A DNA stretch of 64,000 bases from Isoetes taiwanensis (taxonomy: Eukaryota; Streptophyta; Lycopodiopsida; Isoetales; Isoetaceae): contig JAJEKV010000036.1 of NCBI GenBank assembly GCA_021234155.1, forward strand, positions 5,524,209 to 5,588,208. The letters run 5' to 3'. This document shows positions 784-59,717 of the stretch, piece after piece. Positions within the stretch are counted from its first letter, which is position 1; each line of letters starts with the position of its first letter. The translations under genes were made by a program, and so were the position numbers. Under the pieces are notes generated by a model, which saw only the letters and a list, made by a program, of their open reading frames with translations, was not told the DNA's origin and ran no database searches.

Positions 784-1940
784 ATGGCAAGGACCAAATA
801 CACCATGAGGAAGTCTAGCCCAAAGCGGGACCCCTTGATGGCGGCAGCGAAGAAATGGAGGCCATGGGAAGCGGATCCCCGAAAGCACCTCCACCCCGAG
901 GCGGAATCGCAGAAGAATCGTCCAGCTCAACGGACGAAACTTTCCATGCGTCACAGGAGGAGCCCCAGAGCAGCTCTTCGTCGGTAGAGACACAACGAAC
1001 CGGCGAGACCCATCACCTGGGTCCCCTGTCTGACCAGGAGGAGGAGCATCAAGAGGAGCACCAGGGAGATGAGCAGCACAGCAAGCAGGACCAAAGAAGC
1101 AGCTAGAGTGCATCCAGCCCCAGCCCCTTCTTCAAGCAAGAAGAAGGGGAAGGAGAAGGTAACGGAGTGGCCAGAAGAGAAGACCGCTCGGAAGAAGAGG
1201 GAGCGGGAGGAAGAAGAAAGGATGCAGAGGAAGCGGTCGCGGAGGGATCGTCCAAGGGGGACGGTCCATATTGAAGAACCTCGCCCACGCGAAGAGGAGG
1301 AGTGGCACGAGGAAGTGGAAGAGGAGGAGGTCGAAGAGGAGGAAGCCGGGCAAATGATGAGCCCGGGCGACGGCGGCGAGGTTCATCCGACCCCAATGCC
1401 CGGCCCACCCTACCCGGCAGCTCAAGCCACCGGCGGTAGTCAAGAAGCAGGGCTGCTGAATTCACCTCCCAAGCAGATCGCGGAATTCAAGCGCCGCATG
1501 AAGGTGTACCAAGAGTACCTCTGTCGCTGGACGAGGTACAATGGTCGGTACCGTAGCGTAACGCATGTAACTAGGTTAAAGGGGCGGCGAAGAACCAGCC
1601 AAAGCCGCCACCCCCAAGACCGGAGCTGCCGAAGAAGGTCCACCATGGACCTAATTCCCAGCACGCCCGAGTTTTTCGGGAGATTAGGCACTTTCAGCAG
1701 TGTACTAATCTCCTGATCTGGAAGGCACCGTTTGAGCGGCTCCTCCGGGAGGTGATGCAGGAATTCCGGATGGATTATAGGGTCACACCCCTAACCACCC
1801 GGGCCCTGCAGGAGGCAGCAGAGGCGGAGCTGATCCAGCTCTTTGAACAAGGTAATCTCTGCGCTATCCACGCCAAACGGGTAACCGTCATGCCAAAGGA
1901 CCGGCACTTGGCACGGAGAATTAGCAAGGAGAGACCCTAA
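784..1940 (+). pseudogene. Histone H3-like protein of LTR element, copy A (frame-broken)
   Basis: Second copy of the retrotransposon-borne H3-like gene (see 27265-28418). The start at 784 reads [13 protein letters not shown], an H3-tail look-alike. A Lys/Glu-rich linker follows (about 1069-1480), then a segment beginning [11 protein letters not shown] (about 1488). The H3 fold is open from about 1590 to the TAA at 1938-1940. It contains [21 protein letters not shown] and MPKD. The fold-coding bases appear identical to copy B, whereas tail and linker differ by many small changes and frameshifts. I therefore treat this copy as broken as written; some breaks are probably sequence error. Confidence 0.75.
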
Positions 1941-23362: not shown

Positions 23363-23367
23363 ACTTT
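23363..23367. repeat. Target-site duplication, left (ACTTT)
   Basis: ACTTT directly precedes the 5' LTR and recurs directly after the 3' LTR at 38326-38330. A 5-bp duplication is normal for Ty3/gypsy integrase. Confidence 0.8.
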
Positions 23368-24985
23368 TGTGATTCAGAAATATACGCTTATGAATATGTA
23401 TATACAGTTCGTTACTATACAAGTCTACTACTGTAGCCTTGTATACCTTAGAATTGGCATGGGTGGATATCTAAGTTATGTGTATAACTTAGATAACCTT
23501 AGATAAGACCCATGTTCCACATGGCCTTATCCTATTAGGTAACCGCCACCTGGCTATATCCCAAGGGAGCTACGCGGTCATCCCATGTGGACCCTAACCT
23601 ATATTAACCTAAACCCTAACCCTAGGCCTCTTTTCCCTAGCCCTACCACCTGTGGAACCTTCTCCTTTCGACACGGAAACCCCGCTTTGAAAGCATCGCT
23701 CGTCGTGGCATAGCCTGGCCGCAGCAGCCCCCAAGTGCGTGTGCACGATCTTGAGGGAGCACGGCCACCACGCCAAGGAGCATGGAGACGCCAGAATGGG
23801 AGGAGCACTTTGGGAGCAGGTATTTGGAGTAGAGTCCATAGTAGTTCATCCGAAGTTAGCACTCCGGATGGGTCAAGATGTTGTATCTAGAGTAGAGCCA
23901 TCCTAGAACCCCCTTATTGAACATCTTCAACCCTAATCAAGGAACCCTAACTGAAGTTAGATATGTATGATTACGTTAAGATGTTCTTATGATGATTACC
24001 ATGATATGATGTTATGTGATGATGGTTGAACATGTTTGCTCCTCTTGTATTGGGGGGGGTAGAGACCTAGTAGCCTTACTTAGTAATGCTCCTATAGTTA
24101 GACCCTTTAGTTCCTATTATTATTATGCATGCATAGGAACCCACCGGACTAAGGGAGCTATGATGTGACTCGAAACACTACACAACGGGCTAGAGGAGAT
24201 ACGGAGGAAGGATCCTCGGGCCGTGGCTCTTGGGGATCCCATAGTGGGCTAGGCTTATAGTAGGTCACTGCGGTGGGCCGGGCATGGGTCCCGACACCTC
24301 TTGGGGCAATGGGTCACCGCCTCCTCAAGAGTTGCAAGTGTTGGCTTGGCTCTTGTTTGGGGAGGTAAGTCGGGACTAATCGCGGTGTCGCCATGATTCT
24401 CTAGCCTGCGGAGCCTCTAGACCACAGGAAGGGAGATGCAACCCTTCCTGCCCGACGGACCGGGGAGATGCAACACGAGTACTCCTAGATGGGTGATACC
24501 ATGGGATTCGTGATCAGGAAGGCTAGAGTGCCGAGCTTGGTCTAGCCCATCCGCAAAATGTACGGGGAGGGGTGATGGAGTGGTCAACCCTAGCCATTGT
24601 CTATAGCCAGCCCCACCATTGTTATGACTCGGTCTGCTCTATCTTGAGGCCTAGCCAGTCAGTCATCCTCCTTATGAGTCAAAGCCATGGGTAGGAGCTC
24701 TCATGTTTTATGGTATATGTTTATCTCTGATGTATCTCTGGATATATGGATGGACTACCCTTCGAGGTAGTATGATGTGTTGTTATTGCTAGTTCTGACG
24801 TTGTTTATGCTTCTGCTGTGATAGGAGCCCATAGGGGAAGGGCGCGCAAGACACTTTCGTGTCCTCTTCTCGCACCTGGTGATCCCGTCGGGGATAGACG
24901 GAGGCCCGCGGCGGTCGAAGGATTTGGATGGGGATTTCCCACTGAGTGTCTGACCGGGCCGTGATATTTAGTAGGGAGCGTCACA
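23368..24985 (+). repeat. 5' LTR, chromodomain element
   Basis: Begins TGTGATTCAG, a diverged form of TGTGACGTTCC, and ends GCGTCACA. Length is 1618 bp versus 1643 for the 3' LTR. It is visibly noisier than the 3' LTR, like copy A. Because this stretch may carry consensus error, LTR divergence should not be used for dating here. Confidence 0.85.
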
Positions 24986-24986
24986 A

Positions 24987-24998
24987 TGGTATCAGAGC
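24987..24998 (+). other. Primer binding site (tRNA-iMet)
   Basis: TGGTATCAGAGC is the exact complement of the plant initiator-Met tRNA 3' end. It sits one base after the LTR, as usual for plant LTR retrotransposons. Confidence 0.9.
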
Positions 24999-25467: not shown

Positions 25468-27171
25468 CTGTTGGATCGTCTTCGAAAGAAGGTTGCCCTA
25501 TGGTCAGCCAAAGGTCTTGCAGTGTCTGGGCGTGTAACTGTGGCCAATGCTGTCCTTGCCGCCTCTCACATTTTCTTCTCGTCTGTGATAGTGGCGCAGA
25601 AATTTGTGTACAATCAGATGCAGGTCATAATCAGGAAATTTATCTGGGGAGGTATGGCTAAGGTTGGCTGGTCAGAATTATGTAGAGATAAGAAAGAAGG
25701 TGGTCTTGGATGCAAAGACCCCTTCTCTCAGGCTCAGGCATTAGCAGCCAGGAACATATGGAGACTACTGCAAGGTGACACCTCCCCTGCCCTAGTATTT
25801 GTCAGATATTGGTTTCAACGTTGTAAACTCAAAAGGAAGCCTTCCCTCCCAAGGGACGATTTCGGTGCTGCCTTTAGAGACTTCAAGATAGCCCCAGGTA
25901 CCTCGCCTGTTATGAGAAGAATACTCCAAGCATGGGCGAAGGTGCTACCATTATGCACTCCTGCTAAGCTACCCCCTCATGCTGGTAAGATCAATCCTTT
26001 CTGGAATATTAGGGTTTGGGGATCAAGGAATCTTCCTCTTGCACTTGTACACCCCTGGATCTATAGTAAGTGGAAAGTCCATGGCATCTCCAGGCTATCT
26101 CACCTTTGGGAGAATGGCAGATGGATCTCTTGGTCCAAACTTAAAAGGCTGGTCCCAAATGCTGGTGAGGGTGATAGGAAGATCCTAAGGGAAATCCAAG
26201 CCAATATCTCTGATCTTTCTGGACTGGAAGGTCCTGAAGAAAGATGGGAGTGTGTGGAATCCCCTTCCTACAAGGTAGCTAAGGTATATCGAGCGCTTCG
26301 TGGAGAAGTTCCCCTTAAAGCTGAGCTCATTCTGGGGGTCAATAGACCAACTACTATTCAACTCCTTGCCAACTCCTGGAAGACCATGTGTTCTCGAAGA
26401 ATCCAGTTTTTGGAGTGGACAGCCCTTCAAGGTGGTATTTCCTCCAATGCTAAACTCTTCCTAAGAGGTATCTCAGCAAGTGAACTGTGCCCTCTAGGTT
26501 GTCAAGCCAGTGAATCCACTGCACACGTGCTCTTTTGCCCTAGGATTTCTGATTTTTGGAGATGGGTTACTCCTATTCTAGGACTTGACTTACACTAACT
26601 CAACTGGCCAGGTATTATAATTTCATCTGGGAGCTGCAAAATTACTTCTTCTCTGGTAGCAATTGCCCTTTGGGTGGTCTGGAAGCATCGGTGCCAGGTT
26701 GCTTACGGGGGGCAAGAAGTCAGCATTGACAAAATTAAAAGCCTCTTCAATATGGAGGTGGCCTTAATGGCGCTAGCCCATCACAGGAAGATGGGTAGGA
26801 ACTATAACAAGGAACTTGACAGAATTGGCAAGCTTGAAGGCTTTTACACGTTCTTCAAGTGTAACTGGGTTGACAGGGATGAAGAAGAAGAAGAAGAAGA
26901 GATTTTAACGTCCCCAAACGGCAATTAACAACCCCAAACGGCAATGATGGTGGAAGTGCACATCCCTATCTATAGTACTCGCTCTTGTGGTGAAGAAGGT
27001 GCTTTGCCTATAGTACCTACATTAGTGGGGAAGAAGAACCGGCTGGGCCACTAGTACACCTTCAATTGTCTTGGGTCTCTGGATTTTATTTCTCTATCTG
27101 TCCCGATGAGGGGACCCAATGTACTCTATTCTAAACTAATAAATTGAACCCTTAAAAAAAAAAAAAAAAAA
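25468..27171 (+). mobile_element. 5'-truncated LINE inserted in the element leader
   Basis: Contains the C-terminal half of a LINE ORF2, a 3' UTR and a poly(A) tract at about 27153-27171. It is flanked by ATCTTCT on both sides (25461-25467 and 27172-27178), a plausible short target-site duplication. The 5' truncation is typical of LINE retrotransposition. It is present in both 26.5-kb copies, so it predates the duplication. Confidence 0.8.
25471..26928 (+). pseudogene. LINE ORF2 C-terminal region (RT thumb and zinc-binding)
   Basis: A 375-codon open frame (25471-26598) begins within RT, past the catalytic core (VANAVLAASHIFF, FIWGG). It continues into the plant zf-RVT region with a Cys/His cluster (CPLGCQ...HVLFCPR). 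A TAA at 26596-26598 interrupts it, but the same frame continues 25 codons later through LWVVWKHRC to 26928. The end is therefore one nonsense mutation away from a longer C terminus. The same TAA is present in copy A. No YxDD box or endonuclease is present because the 5' part is missing. Confidence 0.75.
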
Positions 27172-27264
27172 ATCTTCTTGCCACCTCATTTCCCCCAACC
27201 TTACCTAAACCCTCCTCTCTCTTGATCCGCTTTACGTCGTCATCAGTTTCCCTAACCGTAAGAC

Positions 27265-28418
27265 ATGGCAAGGACCAAATACACCATGAGGAAGTCTAGC
27301 CCAAGGCGGACCCCTTCGATGGCAGCAGCAGCTGGAGGCCATGGGAAGCAGATCCCCGAGCACCTCCGACCAGGGCAGAACGAAGAATCGTCCAGCTCAA
27401 CGGACGAAACTTTCCATGCGTCACAGGAGGAGCCCCAGAGCAGCTCTTCGTCGGTAGAGACACAACGAACCGGCGAGACCCATCACCTGGGTCCCCTGTC
27501 TGACCAGGAGGAGGAGCATCAAGAGGAGCACCAGGGAGATGAGCAGCAGCAGCAGCAGGACCAGCAGCAGGAGCAGACCCAGCCCCAGCCCCTTCTTCAA
27601 GCAAGAAGAAGGGGAAGGAGAAGGTAACGGAGTGGCCAGAAGAGAAGACCGCTCGGAAGAAGAGGGAGCGGGAGGAAGAAGAAAGGATGCAGAGGAAGCG
27701 GTCGCGGAGGGATCGTCCAAGGGGGACGGTCCATATTGAAGAACCTCGCCCACGCGAAGAGGAGGAGCGGCACGAAGAAGTGGAAGAGGAGGAGGTCGAA
27801 GAGGAGGAAGCCGGGCAGTCAGATGAGCCCGAAGGCGACGCTGGAGGTTCATCCGACCCCAATGCCCGTCCACCCTACCCGAAGTAGCCCAAGCCACCGA
27901 AGGTAGTCAAGAAGCAAAAGGTGGGCGCGCGTGAATTCACCCTCCGGCAGGATCGTGAATTCAAGCGCCGCATGAAGGTGTACCAAGAGTACCTCTGTCG
28001 CTGGACGAGGTACAATGGCTGGTACTGTAAGCAGAACGTACAGAACTAGGTTACGGGGGGGCGGCCGAAGAACCAGCCAAAGCCGCCACCCCCAAGACCG
28101 GAGCTGCCGAAGAAGGTCCACCATGGACCTAATTCCCAGCACGCCCGAGTTTTTCGGGAGATTAGGCACTTTCAGCAGTGTACTAATCTCCTGATCTGGA
28201 AGGCACCGTTTGAGCGGCTCCTCCGGGAGGTGATGCAGGAATTCCGGATGGATTATAGGGTCACACCCCTAACCACCCGGGCCCTGCAGGAGGCAGCAGA
28301 GGCGGAGCTGATCCAGCTCTTTGAACAAGGTAATCTCTGCGCTATCCACGCCAAACGGGTAACCGTCATGCCAAAGGACCGGCACTTGGCACGGAGAATT
28401 AGCAAGGAGAGACCCTAA
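27265..28418 (+). CDS. Histone H3-like protein encoded by LTR retrotransposon
   Basis: The ATG at 27265 gives [13 protein letters not shown], matching the canonical H3 tail ARTK-x-T-x-RKS with Lys at the K4 and K9 positions, Arg8 and Ser10 kept. A Ser/Gln/Glu-rich then Lys/Glu-rich linker of roughly 250 residues follows, including a CAG run at 27541-27560. Then comes [11 protein letters not shown] (about 27960) and a Pro-rich stretch. The H3 fold runs from about 28140 to the TAA at 28416-28418, with [35 protein letters not shown] and [11 protein letters not shown]. By eye about 54 of 88 fold residues match plant H3. The loop-1 length equals canonical H3, not CENH3. Tail and fold are in different frames as written (shift near the CAG run), and TAG triplets occur at 27885 and 28047. 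These may be sequence errors or real decay. The family is certain from the motifs; expression and function are unknown. Confidence 0.85.
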
Positions 28419-29420: not shown

Positions 29421-30385
29421 ATGGCGTCCAGTAGCTTTGTTCGATGGTATGATGCTGCCAACCATATCCATGATTTCCCTGCTGAAGAGGCCTTCCATGT
29501 GTTCGACCATCTCTTTGATCTCCACGCAATGTTGACCAGGACACCCTTCTATACCGACATAATCTGCCAATATGATCAGCAGATCCTACCCTGGGAAGTT
29601 AGCTTGCCGCCTAGGGGAGGGAAATGGGTATCCATAGATTCGCTTAGCCAAGCCTTAGGGGGAGGATCCAAGGGCAAGAACTAGCTGTGGGATAGAACAT
29701 GAGACATGCCTGACTACATGACCTGTAGAGCCCATAGGCATAGATATCTCTCAGCACATGCAGCCCTCGCTCTATTCATGCAGTATAAGTCAGTCAATAG
29801 GGTGGGAGAACCTTCGATTCAGCCTTTGGACCTAGCGCCACTCGACACACGAAGGGAGCAAAGCCAAATCCATGAGATCGAGTCAGCAGAGTACGTGTAC
29901 CGTGGCATAACATCAGGGGCACCGGCACTACAAATTGAGCAGGATTACGAGCAGCTGGGGGAAGAAAACCCAGGTTGGGAAAGCAGAGAGGCCACAAGAA
30001 TGGAGAGGCACATAGCGAGGCATGATGATGAGTTCAGGCGGGCCTATGAACCACCAATCGGCATCACAGCCCTATCGCCAATAGTCATCGATGGAGAAGA
30101 GTACATCTTGGCGAATGACATCCTCAACCTTCCTTACTGCCAAGAAGAAGGGCTTAGAATCGACGAGCTCTTAGGCTTGATGGCAAAGGAGCAGCAAAGT
30201 GACTTCATCGACTACTCCTATCAGGAAATCCCAAGGGAGCTAGCAGAGCGACACTCTTACGCAGGGGAGACAATGTCAGATATATAGCTGCCTATGTGCA
30301 GATAAGGGAGATGTATCGTCAACAGGAACCAATCATCCCAGAGGAGGAATTTGGAGAGCGCAACTACCATGTGGAGAGACCATGA
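29421..30385 (+). CDS. ORF-B, unknown cargo protein of LTR element
   Basis: Reads from ATG 29421 (MASSSFVRWYDAANHI) for 87 codons, then stops at 29682. The same frame resumes to 30287 (193 codons including DGEEYILANDILNLPY). A +1 shift near 30270 extends it through QIREMYRQQEPIIPEEEF to a stop at 30383-30385. One protein of about 320 residues with a short corrupted stretch near 29660-29710 is the simplest reading. It is acidic, without a signal peptide, membrane segment or recognised domain. It lies between the H3-like ORF and gag on the same strand, preceded by a TATA-like box. It could be a captured host gene or a clade-specific accessory ORF; I cannot tell which. Confidence 0.55.
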
Positions 30386-31060: not shown

Positions 31061-32312
31061 ATGACCAATACTTGCAGCCAGGAACATCGGCACAAGGTCT
31101 CAAGGCCAAGGCCGGCAGCATCAATGGCTCCCTAGAAACTTGTTTGGGCGAGAACAAGACGACAACAATGAAGAAATGACGGTGGAGACAGTAAATGCAA
31201 GGCTCATGCAAATGAGGAACCAGATGCACCAATTGATTCATTGGGCAACCCCATTGATTAACGCTCAGGAATACGGACCCCCACCACCACCTCCACCACC
31301 TGCGCGAGGCGTTGATGAGGCTCCACAGCCAGAAGGGGAAGAGAATCAAGGAGATGTCAGGGACAAGAAGAGAAAGAGGAGAAACAGAAGGAGCCCAACA
31401 TCATCCAGCTCTAGCACGTCAGATACCTCTAACAGCCAGACTAGTAGCAGCTCCGAGAGCGAGTCAGATGCATCACAGGACAGGAGAAAGAACAGGAAGA
31501 CAGATGATTATCAGAATAAAGTGGATAGTGCCATGAGTAATGTCTGGAAGACAAGGAAGCTTGGTCAATTTTCAGGTAAAGACAGGTCAGGCATGGAGGC
31601 AGAGGCTTGGCCTGATGAGATGGAGGAATTTGGGAATTTCTATGGCATGAAAGACAAGGACATAGGCAAGGTTGCAACAGCCAATCTAATAGGACCAGCC
31701 AGGATATGGTGGAAAGGGTATGCTAAGTCTAATAAGTTGAGGAGGAACAACTGCAGATTCAAGACTTTCAGTAAGGCTTTCCGCAAATATTACGTGCCGA
31801 GATCTCACACAAGTAGGCAGATACAGCAGTTTTACAGATTGGATCAGGGTAACTTATCCGTAGCCAAATATACCGAAGAGTTTATGAGATTGAGACTCAA
31901 TGTTCCTAGGATTACAGAGAGACAAGCAGTGGATGGATACATTGAAGGGCTGAACAGTAACATCAAGAGTTTAGTTCGAGCAATCAACCCAAAGACAGTC
32001 GGGGAGGCCGAGGATAAGGCTTTGAGTTTGGAAGAAGCACCAGTAACTCCAGGGCAGAAACAGTTACCATTCAAGAGTAAAACAATAGCGCAGTATCAGA
32101 ATATGCAAGCAGCAACCACGCCAGCCGAAGGCCAATATCAAGGAAAAGCTCAAGGAAAGCCCTTTACCGCAGGCCACAAAATGGATCAGGGGGCAGTTCG
32201 CTCAAGCCAAAAGAGAAGAGGCAGGAATGCATTGAAAAGAAGTTGTGCTTTAGGTGCTTCCAGCCAGGGCACCGAACGCACGACTGTCCCTTCGTCATGC
32301 ACGCGGCATTAG
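31061..32312 (+). CDS. gag: Gag polyprotein of chromodomain element
   Basis: The likely start is ATG 31061 (MTNT...), a one-base shift near 31120 separating it from the long frame at 31140-32312. The N-terminal part is Pro/Glu/Ser-rich. The retrotransposon Gag (capsid) domain is about 31600-31990, with PARIWWKGY and QQFYRLDQGNLSVAKYTEEF. The zinc knuckle [14 protein letters not shown] lies at about 32246-32287 in the next frame, so a second shift near 32200 splits nucleocapsid from capsid. Length and order suit a plant chromovirus Gag, which packages element RNA in cytoplasmic particles. Confidence 0.85.
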
Positions 32313-33208
32313 CAGAGCTTGCGGATTGGGAGTCACCAACCGAAGGAGATGATGAAGAGGATGACCAGCAGGAAGCCCAAGATTTCATAGAAGGTGAGTG
32401 CAAAATTTGTGCAGCTATTGAGTCAGGGAATGTTGAGAATCAGTCCACAGTCATCGCGTCTGAGGGAATCATAGATAGCAGTCCATACCTAGTCTTGATA
32501 GATACAAGTAGCTTCCACAATTTTGCCTCTCCTAGGCTTGCTGCCCTAATGAAGAGTAAGGTCTTGAAGTCAAAGCCAAGGCCAGTTAGCATGGCAAGCG
32601 GTGCCATTCGCCACACTAAGGGGAGGAGGATCACGTTTGACATAGACCTTAGTGGAAGCAAGTGGCCGATGGGGGCAGAGGTCATGGATATTGGAAAGTA
32701 TGATCTTATAGTAGGAATGGAGTTCCTAAAGCCAGCTAAAGCTATGATAGATTGCGAGCGCAACGAGATCTCCATGACGACGCCAGACGACAACCGATTC
32801 ATAGTGAAAGGTAAGAAGGTAGCTTCTCCTATGCAGTGCATTTCTATGAAGCAGCTAAGAAAAAGTATAGTAAGAAACAAGGTGGATTATATCTTGAGGG
32901 TAGAGGCAATTGAACCAAGTAAAGAGAAGGGAAATGACCTAAGTGGGAATCAGTTGCCCAAGCCAATAGCAAGGCTCATTAAGGAGTTCAATGATGTATT
33001 TTCGGATCAAATCCGTCAGCTACCACCTTATAGGGGTGTAGAGTGTGAAATCACATTAGCTCCAGATGCTAAGCCTACCAGCAAGGCACCTTACAGAATG
33101 AGCACCTCAGAGTTGATAGAGCTCAAGAAGCAGCTTTGGGGCACCCATACTCTTCGTCAAGAAGAAAGACGGGAGTCTAAGAATGTGTATAGATTATCGC
33201 CAGCTTAA
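32243..33208 (+). CDS. pol: Zinc knuckle, aspartic protease and RT N-terminus
   Basis: A 321-codon frame. The zinc knuckle is residues 2-15. The protease has [13 protein letters not shown] at about 32495-32530, where the usual D-T/S-G triad reads [14 protein letters not shown] (about 32697) is the second conserved protease strand. The end enters RT ([26 protein letters not shown]) and then loses frame near 33150. The protease matures Gag-Pol. The altered triad may reduce activity or be a lineage trait; copy A has the same residues. Confidence 0.8.
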
Positions 33209-34494
33209 CAAGCAAACGATAAAGAATAAATATGCTCTGCCAAGGGTAGATGCTTTGATGGATCAGCTCCAAGAAGGGGAGCAAAAGTTTTCTCTAAGAT
33301 TGACTTAAGGTCAGGTTACCACCAGATAAGGATAAAGGAAGAAGATATCCATAAGATCGCCTTCATAATGCGGTACGGGCACTTCGAGTTTACGGTAATG
33401 CCCTTTGACTTATCAAATGCCCCGGCAACTTTCATGTGTCTCATGAATGACATCTTCCGAGAGTTCTTAGATGAGTTTGTCATTATATTCTTCGACGACA
33501 TCCTAGTCTACAGCAAGTCCATTGAAGACCATTGTCAGCAGTTGAGAAGAGTGTTGGAAAAGTTGAGACGGCATCGGTTGTATGGGAAGCTCTCCAAATG
33601 CCACTTCGCAACTGAAAGAGTGGAGTACTTAGGGCACGTGATATCAGCGGAAGGGATCTCCACCGACCCTGCAAAGATTGAAGCAGTAGTTGATTGGCCA
33701 GCTCCAAAGAACGTGGCAGAAGTGAGAAGTTTTCTCGGTCTGGCAGGATACTATAGGAAGTTCGTAAAGGACTTCGATAAGTGGGCGTCCCCCTTATCGG
33801 ACCTCACTAAGAGTAATAAGGTAAAAGATTGGAGAACACATTCGCTAGAAAATGTTCAAGCTTCATTCGAAAAGCTCAAGGAAGCCTTAACAACAGCACC
33901 AGTGCTAATTCTACCAGATCCAAATAAGGACAAGCTAGTAGCAACTGATGCAAGTAAGCTAGCAACAGGTGGAGTCCTTATGCAAGAAGGAAGCGTGGTA
34001 GCCTATGATTCTAAGAAGTTGAATGATGCCGAGCAGCGTTATCCAACCCATGATCAGGAACTTTTAGCTATCGTGTTTGGAGGCATTATTTGCTTGGAAG
34101 GAAATTTCAGTTAGATACTGATCACCAGAGCCTTCAATACATTTTTACCCAACCACTCCTCAATCTAAAGCAAAGGAGGTGGATGGAATTCCTCGAAGAG
34201 TATGACTTCGAGATAGTTTATAAGCCTGGTAAGTTGAACGTGGTTGCTGATGCTCTCTCCAGAAGACCTTTTGAGATGAGAACGCATTGTAATGCCATAT
34301 CAACTCTTTCGAGTGAGTATGGCAAGAAAATTGAAGAAATGTTACCATCAGATGGTGACTTTCAGGAAGTTTGGGCTAGCCTCTCTAAGGAGGTAAGAAC
34401 TGATAAAGAAAGGGAGGCCTTCAAGAACTATAAAAAGGAAGGGAACCTCCTATACCACAAGAACAAGTTGTGTGTACCTGAAGCATCGGGGTGA
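33150..34494 (+). pseudogene. pol: Reverse transcriptase and RNase H, frame-broken
   Basis: RT motifs in order: CIDYRQLNK region (about 33185), [11 protein letters not shown] (about 33301), the catalytic FFDD at 33488-33499 and [11 protein letters not shown] (about 33735). RNase H begins with ATDASK near 33943. The frame 33368-34114 ends where both copies lack about four codons before the WRHYLLG motif (near 34078), so this lesion predates the duplication. Frame 34090-34494 carries the RNase H C terminus and connection (DALSRRP). A one-base deletion at 34491 separates it from integrase; copy A has the extra G there. Confidence 0.85.
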
Positions 34495-35816
34495 GAAAGC
34501 TAATCCTCCATGATACGCACAATAGCCCAATAGCAGGCCATGCAGGGTTTATGAAGACGCACTTCAAGATTCCAAGTAGCTATTTCTGGCCGGGAATGAA
34601 GAAACAGATAGCCAGATATATTCGGGAATGTCAATTGTGCCAGCAGCCCAAGGCAGAGCAGCTTCGAATTCCGGGAGCTTTGGAACCTTTGGCAGTGCCA
34701 AATGCAAAGTGGGAAGTAGTAAGCATGGATTTTATTACAGGACTTCCTCGAACTCTACGAGGCAAAGATGCACTAATGGTGGTCGTAGATAAATTATCTA
34801 AGATGGCACACTTCGTGCCTTGTAAAACTACGGACACAGCATTAGACACTGCCGTTCTATTTGTAAAGGAGATTTTCAGACTCCACGGCATGCCTCGAGA
34901 GATAATATCAGACAGGGATTCCAAGTTCATGAGTGCATTCTGGCAGGATCTATTTGCCACGATCCAGACCAAGCTCTCGATGAGCACGGCCTACCATCCT
35001 CAGACGGATGGCCAGACGGAGCGGACGAATCGCATCATCGAAGATATGCTCATAAATTATGTTTGGAATAAGCAATCCAAGTGGGATGATTTCATCCACT
35101 TGGTAGAGTTCGCCTACAACAGTGCCAAGCAGGAGTCATCCCAGATGTCTCCCTTCATGATCAATTATGGGTACCAGTGCCTGACCCCTGATACTTGGCA
35201 CAACCCAGTGTCAAAGGTAGAAGTATCCCAGCAAATGCTATCTGATATGCAGCAACTGGTTGAAGATGTAAGGGGATATTTGTTAGCAACAAGAAGTCGG
35301 CAAAAGAGTGTAGCTGACAGGCACAAGACCGTAAGGGAGTTCAAGGTAGGCGACAGTGTGTGGTTGAAGATCAAGGTGAAGCAAGCCAAGCTTTGCATAG
35401 GGAATTGCAAGAAGCTTGCTCCCAGGTGGGCAGGGCCTTTTAAGATCTTGGAGCAGGTGGGCACCCAGGCCTACAAGCTAGATCTCCCGGCACACCTCAA
35501 AGTCCATAAAGTCTTCCATGTGAGCCTCTTAAAAAGGCACAACCCCAACCCTGATGAGGTTTTGGAAACTCCAACCCTGTTGGAAATGATGGAGGAACAA
35601 GTTGAAATTGTGCCTGAATTGCTTCTTGATAAGGCATTCAAGAAGACCAGGAGGTCTCAGTTCCTCCAATATTTGGTCAAGTGGAAACACTTGCCCGTGG
35701 AAGACGCAACATGGGTATTGAAGCAGGATTTAGAGAAGCAATACCCGGACTTCATTAAGGAATTCGATGGGCGAGTCGTCTCCGAACTTGTCGACGCCGA
35801 CTTGCCAGGTGCTTAG
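34491..35816 (+). CDS. pol: Integrase with C-terminal chromodomain
   Basis: A 441-codon frame. The HHCC zinc site (HDTH...HAGF...CQLCQQP) is at residues about 5-50. The DDE core has D in SMDFITGLP (about residue 79), D in IISDRDSKF (about 141) and E in DGQTERTNR (about 178). A GPF-like SH3 region (WAGPFKILEQVG) is near residue 315. The chromodomain is about residues 380-430 with LQYLVKWKHLPVEDATWVL. This is a chromovirus-type integrase; the chromodomain class is known to bias insertion towards H3K9-methylated chromatin. The H3-like cargo in the same element is therefore notable. Confidence 0.92.
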   Translation: MRKLILHDTHNSPIAGHAGFMKTHFKIPSSYFWPGMKKQIARYIRECQLCQQPKAEQLRIPGALEPLAVPNAKWEVVSMDFITGLPRTLRGKDALMVVVDKLSKMAHFVPCKTTDTALDTAVLFVKEIFRLHGMPREIISDRDSKFMSAFWQDLFATIQTKLSMSTAYHPQTDGQTERTNRIIEDMLINYVWNKQSKWDDFIHLVEFAYNSAKQESSQMSPFMINYGYQCLTPDTWHNPVSKVEVSQQMLSDMQQLVEDVRGYLLATRSRQKSVADRHKTVREFKVGDSVWLKIKVKQAKLCIGNCKKLAPRWAGPFKILEQVGTQAYKLDLPAHLKVHKVFHVSLLKRHNPNPDEVLETPTLLEMMEEQVEIVPELLLDKAFKKTRRSQFLQYLVKWKHLPVEDATWVLKQDLEKQYPDFIKEFDGRVVSELVDADLPGA

Positions 35817-36671: not shown

Positions 36672-36682
36672 AAGGGGGGGAA
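36672..36682 (+). other. Polypurine tract
   Basis: AAGGGGGGGAA sits immediately 5' of the 3' LTR start TGTGACG; this is the plus-strand DNA priming site. Confidence 0.88.
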
Positions 36683-38325
36683 TGTGACGTTCCAGGGAAA
36701 TATAAGCTATGAATACGTATATTTCCAGGTCCGTCACTATACAAGTCTACTTCGTAGCCTTGTATACATTAGGAAGTGACATGGGTGCATATCTAAGTTA
36801 TGTGTATAACTTAGATAACCTTAGGATAAGACCCATGTTCCACATGGCCTTATCCTATTGGGTAACCGCCATGTGGCCACATCCCAGTGGAGCCACGTGT
36901 CATCCCATGTGGACCCTAACCTATATTAACCTAAACCCTAACCCTAGGCCTCTTTCTCTAGCCCTACCACCCAGGGAACCTTCTCCACGCTCGAAACCCC
37001 ATTTCGAGCATCGTTCATCGTGGCATAGCCTGGTGCAGCAGCCCCCGAAGTGTGTGCACGATCTTGGAGGGAGCACGGCTTCGACCACGTCAAGGAGCAT
37101 GGAGACGCCAGGAATGGGAGGGGCGCTTCGGGAGCAGGTATTTGGAGTAGAGTTCATAGTAGTTCATCTGGAAGTTAGCACTCCAGATGGGTCAGTATGT
37201 TGTATCTAGAGTAGAGCCATCCTAGAACCCTTATTGAACATCTTCAACCCTAATCAAGGAACCCTAACTGTAAGTTAGATATGTATGATTAGGTTAAGAT
37301 GTTCTTATGATGATTACCATGATATGATGTTATGTGATGATGGTTGATCATGTTTGCTCCTCTTATATTGGGAAGGGGGGTAGAGACCTAGTAGCCTTAC
37401 TTAGTAATGCTCCTAGTTAGACCCTTTAATTCCTATTATTATGCGGCCTGTGCATAGGAACCCACCGGGATAAGGGAGCTATGATGTGACTCAGCACTAC
37501 ACAACGGGGCTAGAGGAGATACGGAGGGAGGATCCCTGTTGAGCGTGGCTACTGGGGATCCCATAGTAGGCTAGGCTTATGGTCAGTCACTTCGTGTGGG
37601 CCGGGCATGGGTCCTACACCTCCTGGGGCAATGGTGTCGCCCTGCCTCTCAAGAGTTGCAAGTGTTGGCTTGGCTCTTGTTTGGGGAGGTAAGTCGGGGA
37701 CGAATCCTGTGTCGCCACGATTCTCTAGCCGCCCGTGGAACCTCTAGACCCTGGGAAGGGGAGATGCAACCCTTCTTGCCTCGACGGACTAGGGAGATGC
37801 AACCTGGAGTAGTCCCGATGGGTGATACCATGGGATTGCATATCCGGAAGGCTAGAGTCATGCCAGAGCTTGGTCTAGCCCATCTGCAAAGTATGCACAG
37901 GAGGGGCGGATGGAGTGGTCAACCATAGCCATTGTCTATAGCCAGCCCCGCCATTGTTATGACTCAGTCTGCTCTATTTTGAGGCTTAGCCAGTCAGTCA
38001 TCCTTCTTATGAGTCGGAGCCACGGGTAGGAGCTCTCATGTTTTATGGTATATGTTTATCTCTGATGTATCTCTGGATATGTGGATGGACTACCCTTCGA
38101 GGTAGTATGATGTGTTGTTATTGCTAGTTCTGATGTTGTTTATGCTTCCGCTGTGATAGGAGCCCATAGGGGAAGGGCGCGCAAGACACCTTCGTGTCCC
38201 CTTCTTGCACTACGGTGATCCCAGAGTGCGGGATAGACGGAGGGCCCGTGCGGTCGAAGGACCGGATGGGGGATTTCCTACGGAGTGTATGGCTGGGCGC
38301 CGTATATTTAGTAGGGAGCGTCACA
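36683..38325 (+). repeat. 3' LTR, chromodomain element
   Basis: 1643 bp, TGTGACGTTCC to GCGTCACA. It matches 10181-11823 along its length and 23368-24985 with more differences. It contains a telobox-like motif CTAAACCCTAACCCTAGG at 36931-36948. The right flank ACTTT (38326-38330) matches the left flank. Confidence 0.9.
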
Positions 38326-38330
38326 ACTTT
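38326..38330. repeat. Target-site duplication, right (ACTTT)
   Basis: Matches 23363-23367 and fixes the element boundaries. Confidence 0.8.
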
Positions 38331-38850: not shown

Positions 38851-40673
38851 TGTGACGTTCCAGCATAATATGCGGTAAGAATACGGCTACGCCACTCGTA
38901 CATGTCATCTTAATGACATGTACCTGGAAACCGTAAAGGGTTGCACCTTAGGGGCAACCTCTTATGTTGCACATGTCTATAAACATATGCATTTAACCCC
39001 TTTGCCACATGGCAAAACCCTATATGTCCGTTTAGCCCTAACCCTAAAAGGTCATGTAAAAGGAACAAAAGGGAAAATCCTAAACCTTTCCATTTTCATA
39101 TTTCGACTTGAGCCATTCTAGCCAAGCCAAGCTGCTAATTTGCATTGCCAGATGCTGTCAAGTCGTCTTTGCACAACAGATTTTCAAGGTTCAACCGTCT
39201 TCGACCCAAGCAAAGGCATGGATGCGATTCGAGGTGCAGGAGCAAGCCAGGGATCAGGTAAACAGTGATTCTGTTGTGCAATGCCGATTTTTAGTCCGGC
39301 AATGAGCTGGGTTAGCATGTTAGACTAGCCTTAGTAGCTTTATAGATTCTGAGACCACCAGCCCTAACAAAGGAACCTAACCATGTATGTTTAGGTAGAT
39401 ACACTAGATGTTATTCTGTATTTCAATTTTATGTGATGATGTTCTATTCTATACGTACTCCTGTGTATTGGGAAGGGGAATGGAGACCTTGAAAGCTTTA
39501 GTAGTTGATGTATCTAGATAGCCTCATTAATTCTCAATTAATGCGGCCTCTGGATAAGAGCCCGTCTGGCTGTGGGTGGCGGGACTAGACCGGTGGATAA
39601 GAAGGCCATGTTCCATTGCAGATCGATCCCTCTGGTGTGTAAAGGGTAAAAGCATGTTAGGGTGTCCCTTAAAAAGTATTATTTAGTGACTAAAAAGTAC
39701 CATGTTCGGGTCTTGGGATGTAATATCTCAATAAAAGTTACATTTTAGAACTTTTATATATATTTTAGTCTCCGGTAGCATTATCTTTATCTTAACTTTG
39801 AATATTAATGTGTCCTTGACTTTTATTTTGGACCTTTGTACTAGTTTTAAGGAAAATAAAAATGAGAAAGTACCCAGTTCTGAAGTACCTAGTGTATGTA
39901 CTTTTGCAGGTTCCAAAAGTGGTACACCCTAACATGCTTTTACCCTAAAGCCGACCATGGATCAGCAGGATAGGCCTAATGGCTTGCAACTGCATGTGGG
40001 CAAGGCATGGGCTCGACACCTCTTGGGTGATACGTCACCTTCAATGAGGTTCAAGTCATAAATAGGCCGTGGCCCTCTAGCCACCTGTGATGGGTATGCA
40101 TACCTCTAGAGGGAGTGATCTCCTCCTACCTCATCGGGATTGGGGAGATGAAACACAGGAGGAGCCCCCTTGGCTATGCACTCGGCAGGCTATAGTCCAG
40201 TCCCAAGACTTATCAGCCTATTCTGCAAAGTATGCACAGGAGGGGCAGATGGAGAGGACTACCCAACAGCTATGTTCCTATGCCAGTCCAATTCATTGAC
40301 ATGAATTTTGTCTGCAATGACTTCTGGAGACCCGAGCCGTCAGTCCATTCCCCTTGAGTCTGAGCCTCGAGTAGGATCTCCCCCATGTTGATGTTGTTGA
40401 CGTTGTTGACGTTCTTACACATGTATGCTATGGAGAGCCACCCCTCGAGGTGGAGCTATTTATATTGGATGTCAAGTGCTCATGTTTATTTATGCTTCTG
40501 CAGCTAGGACGGTCCCGAGGGAAGACGGGATAAATGACACATCCATTCTTCCTCATCGATTCCTTGCCAAGGGATTGGTGTCAGGTGGACGGCCTCTCTC
40601 AGCTTGGTTGCCAGAGGGATGAACTCCGGCTTCTAATATGATGGGAGCATCGTAGATGAAGTAGGGGACGTCA
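38851..40673 (+). repeat. 5' LTR of second-family element
   Basis: Starts TGTGACGTTCC and ends GGGGACGTCA, just before a primer-site-like sequence at 40677. It shares the LTR ends and scattered blocks (for example GGGAAGGGG...GAGACCT and GCGGCC) with the first family, so the two families are related. A 302-bp inverted-repeat element interrupts it at 39644-39945. No 3' LTR of this family is found in the window. Confidence 0.75.
39644..39945. mobile_element. MITE-like element inside the LTR
   Basis: Perfect 22-base terminal inverted repeats begin GGGTAAAAGCATGTTAGGG and end with the complement, CCCTAACATGCTTTTACCC. The direct repeat TAAA flanks both ends (39640-39643 and 39946-39949). The interior is AT-rich without an ORF. 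Length and structure suit a non-autonomous DNA transposon; the superfamily is not assigned. Confidence 0.65.
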
Positions 40674-40676
40674 GAG

Positions 40677-40690
40677 TGGTATCCGAGCTA
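40677..40690 (+). other. Primer binding site, second-family element
   Basis: TGGTATCCGAGC is close to the tRNA-iMet complement TGGTATCAGAGC, a few bases after the LTR end. Copy A has TGGTATCCAGAGC, so the native site is probably the standard one. Confidence 0.65.
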
Positions 40691-41325
40691 TGATCTTGGT
40701 AGATCAAGATCGAGCACTGACCAATTCCCTGATAGAACTAACAGTAGACCTTCAGTCTTGGGGATAACAACCCAAGCATGAACCTCGAAAATTGGGAAAT
40801 TTTTTTTCCATCTTTAAAACAATAAGCTAAGCTAATGTTAATTAGGAAAAGTAAAATAAAAAACGTTAAGAGACCTGAAAATTTTGGCCATTAGGGAGTA
40901 ACCCCTCACAGAGTGCGCCAGGACCCTTAGCTAAATTTTAGCTTCAGGATCTCGTGCACTGTGTGAGTGTTTGACTATTATTGACCTAGAAAGATGCATA
41001 ATTAGAGTGATCTAATAGCACATGGCAGCTTAGAATTTGAATTTAAGCCAGAAACTCAAGCTAAAATTTAGAACGGGTCTCTCGCGCATTGTGTGAGTGG
41101 TAGCAGTACTTGTTATCTAAAAGAATGTAAGGTTTTAATCCAGCGAATACTAATGCTTTAAATAATGATATAACATGAAAATTGCAGGTCGGAACCCTAA
41201 AACCCCTAGACCTATAAATAGACCCTTAGGGTTCTTCATTCTCACTATACTCCTCCAACTTGCTGCTCTCTGACCAAGAAGGCAATTTTTAGGCGCTCGG
41301 AAGGCCGATTGCAATATTTCAAAAC
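40691..41325 (+). other. Leader of second-family element
   Basis: No gene is seen. A TATA-like TATAAATA lies at 41213-41220, about 105 bases before the ATG at 41326, mirroring the TATA-like box upstream of ORF-B in the first family. Confidence 0.5.
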
Positions 41326-42690
41326 ATGGCCTGTAACAAACAGACAGTTTAAGTGGTTGTGGAGGACGGATCGATAAGCGTCCAAGTGCTTGCCATCGAA
41401 CAGAAGGCGAGAGAGGCTCGAGAGCGAGCTAGAAATGAAGAGACCCCAAACCAAACCTGGACCTGTCAAACCCATCAAACCCGGAGAAGCAGGAGGATAG
41501 AGATGTGGAGGACGATGATGAGGAGGACCGTGCAACAACAGAGAAGTTGCCCCATCCCATCAAGAAAATCAGCAAGAAGAAGAGGAAAGCCAAAAGAAGG
41601 AGACTTGTAGAGAAGGTGGAACTCTTGAAGCAGAGGGAGGACAAGGGGAAAAACCCAACTCTTTCGAAGAAACCCCAAGAAAACCAAGAACAACAAAGGG
41701 GTAAAGATAACAGAGGGGGATCCCGATAGGCCGGCATCGTCCTCATCAGACACAGAGTCGGACGATGATGCTTGGAGGATCCCCGGCTAGACGGAAGGAT
41801 TGGGACCCTCCAATCCCAACAACTAGGAAGTTGCAGCACCACCTCTCTACCCGACTTGGCTGAAATCAGCTGCAAATCCTAAGAAGGCCAAGCCAGCACG
41901 GGAGTCGTATGTACTCAAGCACGAGCGAGAGTACAAGAAGAAACTGAAGGAGTACAATGAATACATGAAGATCAGGGAAAATTTTAAGGATTCTATAATT
42001 TTGTATAAGTATATAATGAATTGGCCATTCTTTGTAAAATATGTCCCCAAAAGTGCAGCCTGAACTGGCCATTTTTCCAATTTTTTTCTAATATGGCTGC
42101 AACCCAATTGGCAATTTTTGAACCAAAATCTAACAATTTGTAGCTCAAATGGCGATTTTTAGCTAGAATCTTATTAAAAATAGAGCTAGTTGCCCAAGCA
42201 TAAAGAAGTCGCTACCCTATATAAATGTGTTTAAGTTACATGTTGTATGAATTTGAATTCATGCCCCATGTATTTCAATAATGCACAGATTGCGGGTAGG
42301 GAGAATCGAAAATTGGATGTCGGAATCTTCGGATCTAGTTCTCACTTGGGACTAAAATGGCCCCAAAGTCGATACCACTCCAACTAGCAAACATCTAATT
42401 GGCCATTCTAATGTCGTAATAGGCAATAAAGTGCCACGAAATGGCGAATCTGCAGGTAATCCATAGGTAAGGCATCCTACTCAAGCTGGCCGTCGCTAAA
42501 CCTGTAATTTGTGGCCAAATGGCCCGCCGGGGCCACTAAAATTTTTGCTGATGAAGATGTACGAGGCGTACTCCAAGTACTACAAAGAAAACAAGGTGAC
42601 GTACGTTGAAGGAAGAAGGCCAACAAAGGATAACACCTTGAATCCACCCCCAGAAAGACCCCTACCACCAAAGAAGCCCATGAAGTGAAA
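41326..42690 (+). pseudogene. Charged-linker ORF related to the H3-like cargo, truncated
   Basis: The ATG at 41326 is followed by a frame that stops after eight codons (MACNKQTV). The KQT is suggestive of an H3-like tail but too short to rely on. Later frames encode an Asp/Glu/Lys-rich stretch (41505-41729), a Ser/Asp patch, then KKLKEYNEYMK near 41940. After about 560 bases with no good frame comes KMYEAYSKYYKENK near 42550 and a Pro-rich end (RPLPPKK). This order parallels the linker of the H3-like ORF up to just before its histone fold. Here the LINE begins and no fold is visible. Confidence 0.5.
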
Positions 42691-42742
42691 GACGGACTCG
42701 TGCTTCGCCAAAGCTGCTCCGAAGATTCGTCTTTGGGCACTT

Positions 42743-45700
42743 ATTTTTATTTATTTATTTATTTTATGTCTAATGCTCGCTTGAGCCTTGAGAGGCTATG
42801 GAGCACATGAACAAACCAATTACAGTTTTAAAAGCAAGGTGCGGTGTGCATCTACCGCCCTTACATATGGTGCCAATATCAATGGCTCTGTAGAGAGTAG
42901 TGAATAAAAATCTAATACATGGATGTCATAGTTCTGCCTAATGTCTTCATATCCAGAGCATTCCACGAAAACATGATTCTCATCTTCCACACAACCTGAA
43001 TTGCATATCTTACATACGCGCTCTTCAATTGGAACTCCTGACCATCTTCCTATCTCAATTTCCAATCTATGAGACCCGGATCTCAGATCGGCAAGTAATT
43101 TCCTTTGAGCTGGAGATAGATTTGTTTTCAAATAGGATTATTTGTCATACCTTTCCATGTGATTAACATTTACCCGTCTGATAGCATGCGTTTCCGGGTC
43201 GGCCCATAGTTTCTGGACCGCTTGTCTTTCTAGAAGGACTCTAAGCTCACGCTTATTTGTAGGACAAGTCGACAAATCAAGCCCCCATCCTGTTCGCCCT
43301 GGGATATCGGGTTTCGTTCCCCGCTGAATTTTCCATGGCTTGGTGTGTACGATCGGGATCTAATGCCTTAATTCTGGTATAAAAATTTATAGCAAGAAAA
43401 AGCCCTTCAACCTCAAGTGGAAGCAAGCCACCCTCTGCAAGCATTATGGCAAACGGAATTTGTGCCTTGATACCCAACTCAATTTTCAAGAACAATTTCA
43501 GAATTCCTTCAACTTGTGTCCACATTCGTGGTGAGATGTCTGGTCCCCAAATTGGGACACCATATAACACCACGGTTTGGACTAATGCTTTGAATAAAAT
43601 GCCCTTCAAGTTCCAATCCGAGAGATAGGCTCTGTTACATTTTGCCAACATACTAAAGAGTCTTACCGCCTTGAACTCTCCTATTAATACAATTTTTCCA
43701 ACTGTAGTTCGAAGAGATGTCGATTCCAAGGTATTTATATGAATCTACTGTCTCCATAATCTGCCCCTTGTATGTGAATTCCGGTCTGTCCCTTGTTCCA
43801 AAGACCATTACCTTAGATTTGGAAAGATTGACACTCATTTGCTTTGCATCACAGAAGCTCTCAAGATTAACCAGATGTTCTTGTAAAGTAGACTTCATGC
43901 TAGCAATCAAGACCACATCATCTGCGTAGAGAAGAAGCTGGATGAGATAGTCACCCAAGTTAGTCCCTGCCAACGACCTGGCCCTCAACCATTCGTCCAG
44001 TTCATCTATGAAAACTCCAAATAAAGTCGGAGAGAGTGGGCATCCCTGCCGAACTCCTACCGTACTTCTGATTTTCGTGTCAAGATCCCATGACACCTTA
44101 ATCAGAACTTCTTCATATAATTGAGACACTGCAGCTCTCAAATCTTGCGGAACTCCAATGTGAATTAATCTGTCACTGAGCTTTTTCCTGGGAATTGTGT
44201 CGAATGCCTTCGAAAAATCTATGAAGGCTATGTATAGGGATTTATTAGGTGCCTTTGCTCTTTCTATCAAAGCCCGGAGTGTGAGCACGTGATCCAAAGT
44301 GCTGTGTCTTATTCTGAAACCAGCCTGATATTGAGAGCGGGCTTGAGACTGTTCAGCCCATGAGCTTAGCTTGGTTTCCAGCAAGGCGCCCAAGAGTTTG
44401 GAGAATATACTGCCAATTAGAATAGTTCTGTAATTGCTTATGAGCTTCCTGTCTCCTCCCTTATGAATTGGATGGACCTTATTTACTCTCCAGTTGGCTG
44501 GTAGCCCATGAATGAGGCTTTTATTTAGGAGCTCTGTTAAAATATCTATTGTCTTCCCCTCCATTTAAGGAGTTCCATGCAAAGGCCATCATCATCCACT
44601 GCCTTGTTATTTGATGCTTTTGATAGACATGCCTGTACATCTGCTTTTGTGAACAGATCCGCCATAGGAGCCATTTTTGGCATGCTACAAGTGCCCTCCT
44701 TTTCATAAAGTAAATTTAGCAGATCTTTATTGGCTATATTAGCTTTCTAAACTTTTTGGATCTTGACTTCAAGTCCGCGTTGTTTTGGCAAACTTTTTTT
44801 TATTTCTTATGAATACTTTATACCATCTGGGTTTGCAGATGCAAAATTGTGGTAACTTTTTTCTAGCTTCTCCACATTCCGCGTCCCACCAAGAGTTGCA
44901 GGGCTTACCTTGCCGGTGTCTCTTTGATAGCCCAAAGATTTTGCTCCCTGATGTGAATAAGATGTCTTGAAAAAGGGATGCATCTTTTTCAAAAGTTCCT
45001 GTCCAATCTACAGCAGCAAGTGATTCTTCTAAATGTTTCCCATATGCCTCATGCAAGCTATATCTGATTTTCAGCTTGGGTTGGAAGCTTAGTGCTTGTG
45101 TGGGTTGAGCCATTGCCTTCAACTCCATATGGAGAGGGGCATGATCCGATTCTGGAAGATGTTCTCCTATGTAAAAGTCTCCAATAATCTCTTTGTCTTT
45201 TGCCAACAAATAATCAATCGTGCTACCTCCTGCATGGTTCTTATAAGTCAATTTTCCAGATTTAGGGAATGAACTAATCCCATTGATGATTTTCAGCTGA
45301 CAAGCTGTGCTCAGCTCCAGTAACCTTTGGCCCATTTCATTCATTGATGTATCACCTGATATACGATCATAAGTAGGGTCTTCAATCTCGTCAAGGATGA
45401 CATTTGCCAGGTCTTCATAAGCCTTAGCTTGTTGGCTGCCTGTACGGCCATTGAAATCTCCTATGATGAGAGTGTCTCCAAGAGCTGAGTATTCTAAAAT
45501 GTCCGAATAGATGTTTCCATAAGGATTATCCTTATCTAAATCTGTTTTTTTGTATATATGGAAGCTGTCAGGAGCAAAGTAGCAGACTGCGAGAAACAGA
45601 GGTCGCCCTCTACCATTTATTTGCAGCCATATGAATTGTTTGTTCGAGTCTTGTTTGATGACCTCTAATCCAAATGCAGTATCAATCTTCTTGTAAATGG

Positions 45701-46913: not shown

Positions 46914-47370
46914 TTGTCTTTCTAAAGCTAATTTTTAAGCTCTCTCTTTTCTCGTCTTTCTGCTCTCTCAAGCTCTTGCTTGAGTCTAATTTCTTCTCGT
47001 TTTTTGCGTTCTTCAGCCAAACTCTTATACATTAACTCTTTCAAGCATCATTGCATATGCTTGCTGGCCTAATTTCACTAAAATGTAAGGTGTTAATCAC
47101 CCCAAAATTCTCTGTATCAGATTTTTTTTTTCTGTGCAGACCTGTTATAGGTTGCACCCTAATAACTCAAGATTTCCTTTGAGTTAGTGGCTGAAATTTG
47201 GCCACATGATAGATTGCTCGAATATCTAATTGCCCACCAAGTTTCATGAGAATCTAAGAACTTTAACTTGGTCAAATTACTACTGTATCAGGTCAGAATT
47301 TCAGCCTGTTCTTCTTTGCAAAATAGAATTGGAAACGCTAAGGAGAGTCCCTAAACAACGGAACCAAAAA
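46914..47370 (-). other. Third-family leader and primer site
   Basis: Gag start region (frame-broken) and leader matching 59271-59717. The primer site lies at 47348-47365: on the minus strand it reads TGGTTCCGTTG and continues with two extra bases relative to 59697-59713. Confidence 0.6.
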
Positions 47371-48284: not shown

Positions 48285-48299
48285 TTATTCCCCATTTTT
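48285..48299 (-). other. Polypurine-tract candidate, third family
   Basis: Minus strand AAAAATGGGGAATAA directly precedes the LTR start TGATAAG. At 60632 onward, the outer side of the other LTR copy, the sequence is different, as expected of flanking DNA. Confidence 0.6.
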
Positions 48300-48385
48300 A
48301 TGGAGAGCAATCGCTCTCCACCTTCACGCAGCATCAGCAAGTGAACATGCCTGTAATTCTGGTAGAATGTATAAATCTCTTTTCA

Positions 48386-59713: not shown

Positions 59714-59717
59714 AAAA

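Follow-up and report, generated by a model that had tools for sequence, protein, structure and literature searches.

A histone H3 gene under purifying selection in a lineage of Ty3/gypsy chromoviruses of the quillwort Isoetes taiwanensis

Introduction

Core histones are thought of as a property of the host and as silencers of transposons. Among mobile elements, H3-like genes have been captured and multiplied by fungal hAT DNA transposons in Pyrenophora and Pseudocercospora, as described in sections of PMC3538342 and PMC6710886. Viruses, too, are known to carry one core histone with a lengthened tail (bracovirus H4, xenomavirus H3 and phycodnavirus H3), as described in parts of PMC9145170 and PMC5423620; according to the relevant section of the latter, the bracovirus H4 carries a 38-residue extra tail and joins host nucleosomes, and its effect is lost without that tail. 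Gypsy elements have expanded in the course of quillwort genome evolution (sections of PMC10541799), a subject on which the lineage described here also bears.

We searched the open-access literature for an LTR retrotransposon or retroelement with a histone gene and found none. The main text of a classification survey (PMC6317226) uses the word “histone” once, for chromodomain binding, and mentions no additional or extra ORF and no ORF1, while “histone” is absent from the main text of a review of gene capture by LTR elements (PMC13317346) and from those of the I. taiwanensis (PMC8566536) and I. sinensis (PMC10541799) genome papers. Here we describe a Ty3/gypsy element with an H3 fold in its first gene, found in a stretch of 64,000 nucleotides of the I. 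taiwanensis genome (hereafter the window), and its relatives elsewhere in the same assembly.

Results

Structure of the element in the window

The element is read on the forward strand and lies between two copies of the target-site duplication ACTTT (23363..23367 and 38326..38330). Its 5' LTR (23368..24985) starts with TGTGATTC and ends with GCGTCACA, and is followed by an exact match to the primer binding site TGGTATCAGAGC (24987..24998); at the other end, a G-rich polypurine tract, AAGGGGGGGAA (36672..36682), stands directly before the 3' LTR (36683..38325). The two LTRs are 88% identical. All the boundaries proposed in an earlier, sequence-only reading of this DNA (LTRs, primer site, polypurine tract and target-site duplication) were thus confirmed.

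Between these boundaries we found ORF1 (27265..28418), ORF2 (29421..30287), a frame-shifted stretch with gag and protease (31140..33208; Pfam matches to Retrotrans_gag, Ty3_capsid and a zinc knuckle), and reverse transcriptase, RNase H, integrase and a C-terminal chromodomain (33368..35816; Pfam RVT_1, RT_RNaseH, rve and Chromo), all on the plus strand. The order gag-PR-RT-RNaseH-IN was present as Pfam matches in the sequence of both the window and another locus, and the chromodomain (PF00385) follows the integrase with E 2.6e-11 in the window and 6.1e-8 in locus L012. With LTRs, a target-site duplication, this gag/pol order and the chromodomain all in place, the window element is a Ty3/gypsy chromovirus. 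ORF2 has no Pfam family and contains two in-frame stops in the window copy; it is homologous to the ORF2 of other loci, where this second conserved pre-gag gene reaches about 480-540 residues. The sequence CTATAAAAAGGGG near 29300, before ORF2, is a possible internal promoter.

A secondary insertion separates the primer site from ORF1, namely the 3' part of a LINE (25471..27172, plus strand), with an ORF at 25471-26598 that holds the zf-RVT end of a reverse transcriptase and a poly-A at 27154; a target-site duplication was looked for around it and none was found. The LINE is absent from all three window-type loci with flanks examined. In these loci some 570-580 bases separate the primer site from the ATG, and their LTRs are 75-92% identical to those of the window; for its 5' LTR the identity is 75-84%. 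Scans for tRNAs and Rfam families found nothing.

An H3-like tail, a charged linker and an H3 fold

ORF1 is made up of the start of an H3-like tail (27265..27294), a charged linker and an 88-residue histone H3 fold running from aN to a3 (28152..28415). The Pfam Histone profile (PF00125) matches 28122-28415 with E 8.1e-26 and 91 bits (cut-off 26.4), and solved H3.2 chains align ungapped with the fold over 88 residues (E 7.6e-29), the closest solved chains being canonical H3. The H3-type fold that had been read from the sequence inside a gypsy element is therefore borne out, and the proposed H3-type tail holds as well: the ORF at 27265 begins like the H3 tail ARTKQTARKS, and sister copies have MARTKQTARK or MARTKQTYRK at this point. 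The single ORF that had been placed at 27265..28418, by contrast, was a misreading, as the tail is read in one frame and the fold in another, which is interrupted by TAG stops at 27885 and 28047. The window copy is broken and cannot make the ORF1 protein.

Structure prediction had been proposed earlier as a check of the fold. AlphaFold models of the window fold alone were poor (mean pLDDT 59 and 62), with helices at the right places, and the best Foldseek matches of these models were nucleosomal H3, with a TM of about 0.5. Because both AlphaFold runs gave low confidence, the assignment of the window H3 fold rests on sequence. The N-terminal ORF alone had no match in the PDB, and a search of the linker region against 5.8 billion proteins returned 17 candidates, none of them significant.

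The aN stretch IRHFQ..TNLLI of the element resembles the corresponding stretch of plant CENH3. Plant CENH3 differs in its extra loop 1 residues; loop 1 of the element H3 is not longer and aligns with H3.2 without a gap, and a CENH3 identity was rejected on these grounds.

Four types of H3-bearing ORF1 in the genome

A search of the I. taiwanensis assembly with PF00125, in which the best 150 of 8704 first-look candidates were scored (the first-look numbers being loose), gave 150 matches above the cut-off. Fifteen looked like canonical H3 (matching from position 2, with 164-165 bits), and the eight of these that were fetched (L001-L008) were canonical; at least 135 were not canonical-looking. 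All 20 of these 135 that we fetched, mostly ones with long frames, had a domain of ~200 residues fused to the H3 fold in one order, and we divided them by their N-terminal part into types A (n=15), B (n=4) and C (n=1). In all three types the ~200-residue domain (MPRFKLTVDLKKLNVFQLF..., in L009-L026), which has no Pfam family and is absent from type D, is followed by an H3 that is nearly canonical from TGGK or RYRPG onwards. Types A and B retain little or nothing of the H3 tail (MPRFKLTV, MEEVKQVY).

Type D is the type of the window. Searching the assembly with the window H3 and linker, with the best 150 of 9567 (again loosely counted) candidates scored, yielded at least 150 window-type matches, all with E 1.7e-62 or better and 81-100% identity, two of which are the window's own pair; confinement of the H3 segment to this one locus, named earlier as a possible objection, is thus out of the question. 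The two lists differ in kind, the lowest score in the PF00125 list being 144.5 bits versus 91 for the window type.

We fetched 16 type D copies with long frames (open over 373-434 residues), which consist of the first H3-tail residues, an acidic and basic linker and the H3 fold. Their start reads M-A-[RH]-T-K-x-T in 13 copies, with a remnant KQT[AY]RK in the other three; MARTKQT is exact in 10/16, MARTKQTARK in 4/16, and R8-K9 is kept in 14/16. An intact MAR start and the fold share one open frame in half of the copies (8/16) and do not in the other eight. The linker has a conserved block, RxFxLxQDREF..YxEYLxxWxRYN(D/E)WY, and in the element ORF1 an insert of ~250-350 residues lengthens the H3 tail.

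H3 as a fixed part of the lineage

The order LTR, primer site, ORF1 (H3), ORF2, gag, pol recurs across loci. In 9.5-kb stretches around 20 loci of types A, B and C, the N-terminal domain and H3 were found in 20, ORF2 in 19, gag/pol in 18 and the full order in 17. An exact primer site was present in 16 of these 20 loci, 1.85-2.6 kb before the LCAIHAK codons of H3, and in nearly all it was preceded by the LTR end GCGTCACA. Among four A/B/C loci tested with their 3' flank, three had LTR pairs and different target-site duplications (L012/L029, 93% LTR identity and CAATC; L028/L031, 98% and GCCTC; L015/L032, 95% and GTGACC), and no LTR pair was found in the stretch fetched for the fourth (L018/L030). 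The flanks of all three type D loci examined contained an LTR, an exact primer site, a leader, ORF2 (74-83% identity) and gag; compared with type C, the window ORF2 is a distant relative (292 residues, 22%, E 6e-5). Independent insertions thus carry H3 at the same site, after the primer site and before ORF2/gag, which argues against a recent host pseudogene that landed in the element by chance.

Downstream of 40 of the 150 window-type H3 matches, one of the best 150 ORF2 matches lies within 1.2-3.5 kb on the same strand, where 0.02 such pairs would be expected (the pairs, window included, were found by eye and their distances checked afterwards). Approaching the lineage from the other side, we used a search with type A ORF2, in which the best 150 of 4325 candidates were scored, and took 20 loci down its ranking regardless of H3, skipping one already known from the H3 list. 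H3 sequence was present within 700 bases upstream in 19 of the 20, covering between 45 and 89 of the 89 residues; it contained a stop in four loci, and one locus had no H3. H3 is therefore a constant component of this lineage.

Purifying selection on the H3 fold

We estimated dN/dS by pairwise Nei-Gojobori comparison, leaving pairs with dS outside 0.1-1.5 out of the medians. For the H3 fold, the median was 0.045 (maximum 0.114) among 20 A/B/C copies (96 of 190 pairs usable, 94 left out) and 0.053 (maximum 0.252) among 17 type D copies including the window (96 of 136 usable, 40 left out), in both cases from copies selected by score or frame length, a choice that biases dN/dS downwards. The ORF2-picked loci give a less biased value of 0.10 (median 0.104; nine copies, 27 of 36 pairs usable, 9 left out), with 11 of the 20 loci left out for want of an open 88-codon H3 frame by pattern and two of the nine used copies frame-shifted. 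It had been suggested that many elements sharing the ORF with dN/dS below 1 would speak for a functional accessory gene, and all three medians are of this kind.

In the same elements, dN/dS was 0.047 for pol (18 of 20 pairs usable), 0.099 for gag (42/45) and 0.139 for ORF2 (28/36). Within ORF1, the N-terminal domain and linker of A/B/C elements gave 0.162 (57/153), the type D linker 0.098 (77/120) and its acidic region 0.146 (39/91). Purifying selection has acted on the H3 fold throughout the spread of the lineage, and the fold is about as constrained as pol. Between element H3 and eight host H3 genes, none of 160 pairs had a usable dS, i.e., synonymous sites were saturated; together with a dN/dS far below 1, this again speaks against a recent host pseudogene. 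Selection that keeps H3 in shape suggests that the retrotransposon makes a chromatin protein of its own.

Conserved and changed residues

Among 51 element copies (types A-D and family E), the host residue is retained in 90% or more at 46 of the 88 positions of the fold. Nearly all residues of H3-H3' or DNA contact belong to this set: C110, H113, K115, K122, D123, L126 and I130 (kept in 51/51 copies), R83 (50/51), R63, R72 and T118 (49/51), and R69, R116 and R129 (48/51). Other parts of the histone have changed. Positions 87-90, the chaperone site, read S/T-A-V-L in the host, mostly F-A-I-L in type A and L..R in type D, where they are most changed; type D also replaces K56, F84 and Q85. Judging by these substitutions, the usual chaperones may fail to load type D. 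Type A, aligned by eye, lacks the stretch containing K27 and has R in place of K36, and type D keeps tail residues 1-9, after which there is no tail up to the fold.

Compared by eye with an HP1 alignment, the integrase chromodomain keeps only the middle aromatic position, which we take to mark the type without an aromatic cage. The ligand of such chromodomains is unknown according to parts of PMC6317226 and PMC3350952, and because the cage is missing (by eye) a direct grip on H3K9me by the integrase chromodomain is not expected.

Origin of the element H3

In a tree of the H3 fold (89 columns), types A, B and C formed one clade (support 99/98) and type D another (100/100). A single clade of all element H3 was not rejected (p-AU 0.31, or 0.36 with family E included). 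As types A-D also have LTR ends, ORF2, gag and pol in common, one capture before the split of A and D, followed by divergence, is the simplest reading, although H3 may have been captured several times. The proposal that a host-type H3 was captured and remodelled by a gypsy element is supported.

The closest H3 folds in the protein database were the ENA protein P0110 and its kin. Members of this family have a tail M-[AT]-K-T-K-[QT]-T-K, an insert of some 270-300 residues, and then GGKAPRKQ, RYRPG and the fold. The P0110 extension as a query found at least 146 proteins below E 0.001, and the 120 listed were all from ENA; the LCAIHA part was reached by 59 of 122 proteins of the family and relatives (by pattern). 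R-to-H/C/Q changes within the family suggest, from the sequences, a methylated repeat. Against the I. taiwanensis genome, P0110 gave 96 scored matches, to its H3 part only and best to host H3 (77%); its extension had no match there, and the P0110 family thus comes from another genome. A search of viral contigs with the H3 fold and with P0110 found no relative.

Duplication and neighbouring sequences in the window

Positions 1-21608 and 26495-48130 of the window form a 22-kb imperfect tandem duplication with 91.4% identity (969 mismatches and 544 gap openings), a mosaic of fully identical 250-column windows and indel-rich blocks. It looks unpolished, and assembly noise is its probable cause; long reads had been used to fill gaps in the published assembly (as stated in a section of PMC8566536). 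The duplication contains a second copy of ORF1 (784..1937, plus strand), 92.6% identical overall and identical in the DNA of the H3 fold. As this ORF1 pair is one duplicated block, we rejected two independent insertions in the window and treated 784-1937 and 27265-28418 as one locus.

A diverged second element (40664..42740, plus strand) has a primer-site-like stretch and, at 41326, a decayed frame that begins M-A-C-N-K-Q-T-V-stop. Two of its stretches resemble the ORF1 linker (composition-corrected E 0.007-0.03). Given this weak linker match and the outcome of a search for an H3 fold within it, which found none, it deserves little weight. A TATA-box-like sequence, CCTATAAATAGACCC, lies at ~41203 (duplicate at 14627), shortly before its decayed ORF1, and is a possible internal promoter.

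The window also holds a LINE fragment at 43277-45908 (minus strand), which, like the one at 25471-27172, is inserted in or beside the elements; further gypsy-type gag/pol pieces at 48386-49849 (minus strand) and 46558-60631; a 1.7-kb repeat (46558-48284 and 58909-60631, 98% identical); and a RING finger ORF at 62862-63485 (zf-RING_2, E 5e-12) with a plant ATL-like look.

Discussion

In this retrotransposon lineage H3 has become a standing gene, with its core under selection in many copies. On balance we consider it probable that the H3 variant encoded by the element is incorporated into nucleosomes together with host H4 and acts through its N-terminal part, a mechanism that we infer from the sequences. 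An H3 mRNA would have been captured by a gypsy lineage, as is common in LTR elements, and the captured gene was then conserved, as our data show. From the kept contact residues, ORF1 would pair with host H4 and enter nucleosomes as a bulky H3 variant; because the octamer contacts are conserved, it most likely forms octamers. By analogy with the bracovirus H4, it would be expected to act through its N-terminal part, which might hold gag, integrase or cDNA on chromatin or, alternatively, might give element-rich chromatin a tail state unlike that of host H3. These two options jointly make up the weakest step, and the integrase chromodomain would be a natural candidate for a partner of ORF1, although by eye it lacks the aromatic cage. 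Several observations count against this reading as a whole: the broken window copy, the eight type D copies in which an intact start and the fold do not share a frame, the changes at the chaperone site, the upward shift of dN/dS in the less biased sample and the poor AlphaFold models.

Considerably more tentative is the idea that the element builds chromatin of its own kind, which host silencing would read differently and its own integration complex would recognise. The altered chaperone site, the loss of most tail marks and the retention of K4/K9 in type D would fit it, and if true it would amount to a histone code owned by a mobile element.

Two other functions appear unlikely to us. The H3 fold could bind the element's nucleic acid or capsid before integration, alone or with host histones, for packaging or nuclear entry, without ever serving as a chromatin histone. 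Although the strongly charged linker and the retention of ORF1 beside gag would suit such a role, the best-kept residues include those of the H3-H3' and core DNA contacts, which are relevant to an octamer alone, and the fold is constrained as much as pol. It is likewise doubtful that the free tail, with K4 and K9 in a near-H3 context, serves to occupy histone methyltransferases or readers, with the fold mainly as a chromatin anchor. The retention of R8-K9 in most type D copies and the changes at K27 and K36 in type A (by eye) point in this direction; however, types A and B keep so little of the tail that a tail decoy cannot be their shared function with type D, and constraint is stronger on the fold than on the linker.

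That a captured host H3 is carried without use is very improbable and is, in the main, refuted by the selection data. Gene capture by plant LTR elements is common (sections of PMC13317346) and many copies have decayed, but dN/dS of 0.045-0.10 with synonymous sites near or at saturation, a fixed gene order and the presence of H3 in 19 of 20 ORF2-picked loci contradict it. Finally, the noisy duplication and the gap-filled assembly (PMC8566536, as above) could raise the suspicion of an artefact, either a faulty assembly or a host H3 pseudogene next to an element, but this is refuted by independent insertions on separate contigs with different target-site duplications.

If ORF1, as we favour, enters nucleosomes, a mobile element would alter host chromatin at its base, beyond silencing marks. 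It would then offer a natural experiment on the extent to which an H3 tail tolerates rebuilding, and a direct approach to target finding by those chromoviruses whose chromodomains have an unknown ligand.

The quillwort element shares with plant Ty3/gypsy chromoviruses the LTRs, primer site, polypurine tract and the order gag-PR-RT-RH-IN-chromodomain, and differs from them by two extra pre-gag genes, the first with a histone H3 fold. Like maize Bs1 and other LTR elements, it carries a host gene inside an LTR element, whereas the Bs1 cargo, as covered in sections of PMC13317346, consists of enzyme fragments; histone cargo with such conservation in a chromovirus seems new, i.e., not seen before in the open-access literature searched. 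Like the viral histones, which are thought to join host nucleosomes (parts of PMC9145170 and PMC5423620), ORF1 is one core histone with a host-like fold and a longer N-terminal tail, but the viral extra tails described there measure 35-68 residues and belong to DNA viruses or polydnavirus segments, whereas the quillwort insert runs to hundreds of residues in a retrotransposon. With the fungal hAT elements, as far as the cited sections describe them, it shares the capture and multiplication of an H3 gene by a mobile element; 784 copies are reported in P. fijiensis, most of them truncated and RIP-damaged, whereas the quillwort H3 is carried by an LTR element, with an insert in its tail and purifying selection on its fold.
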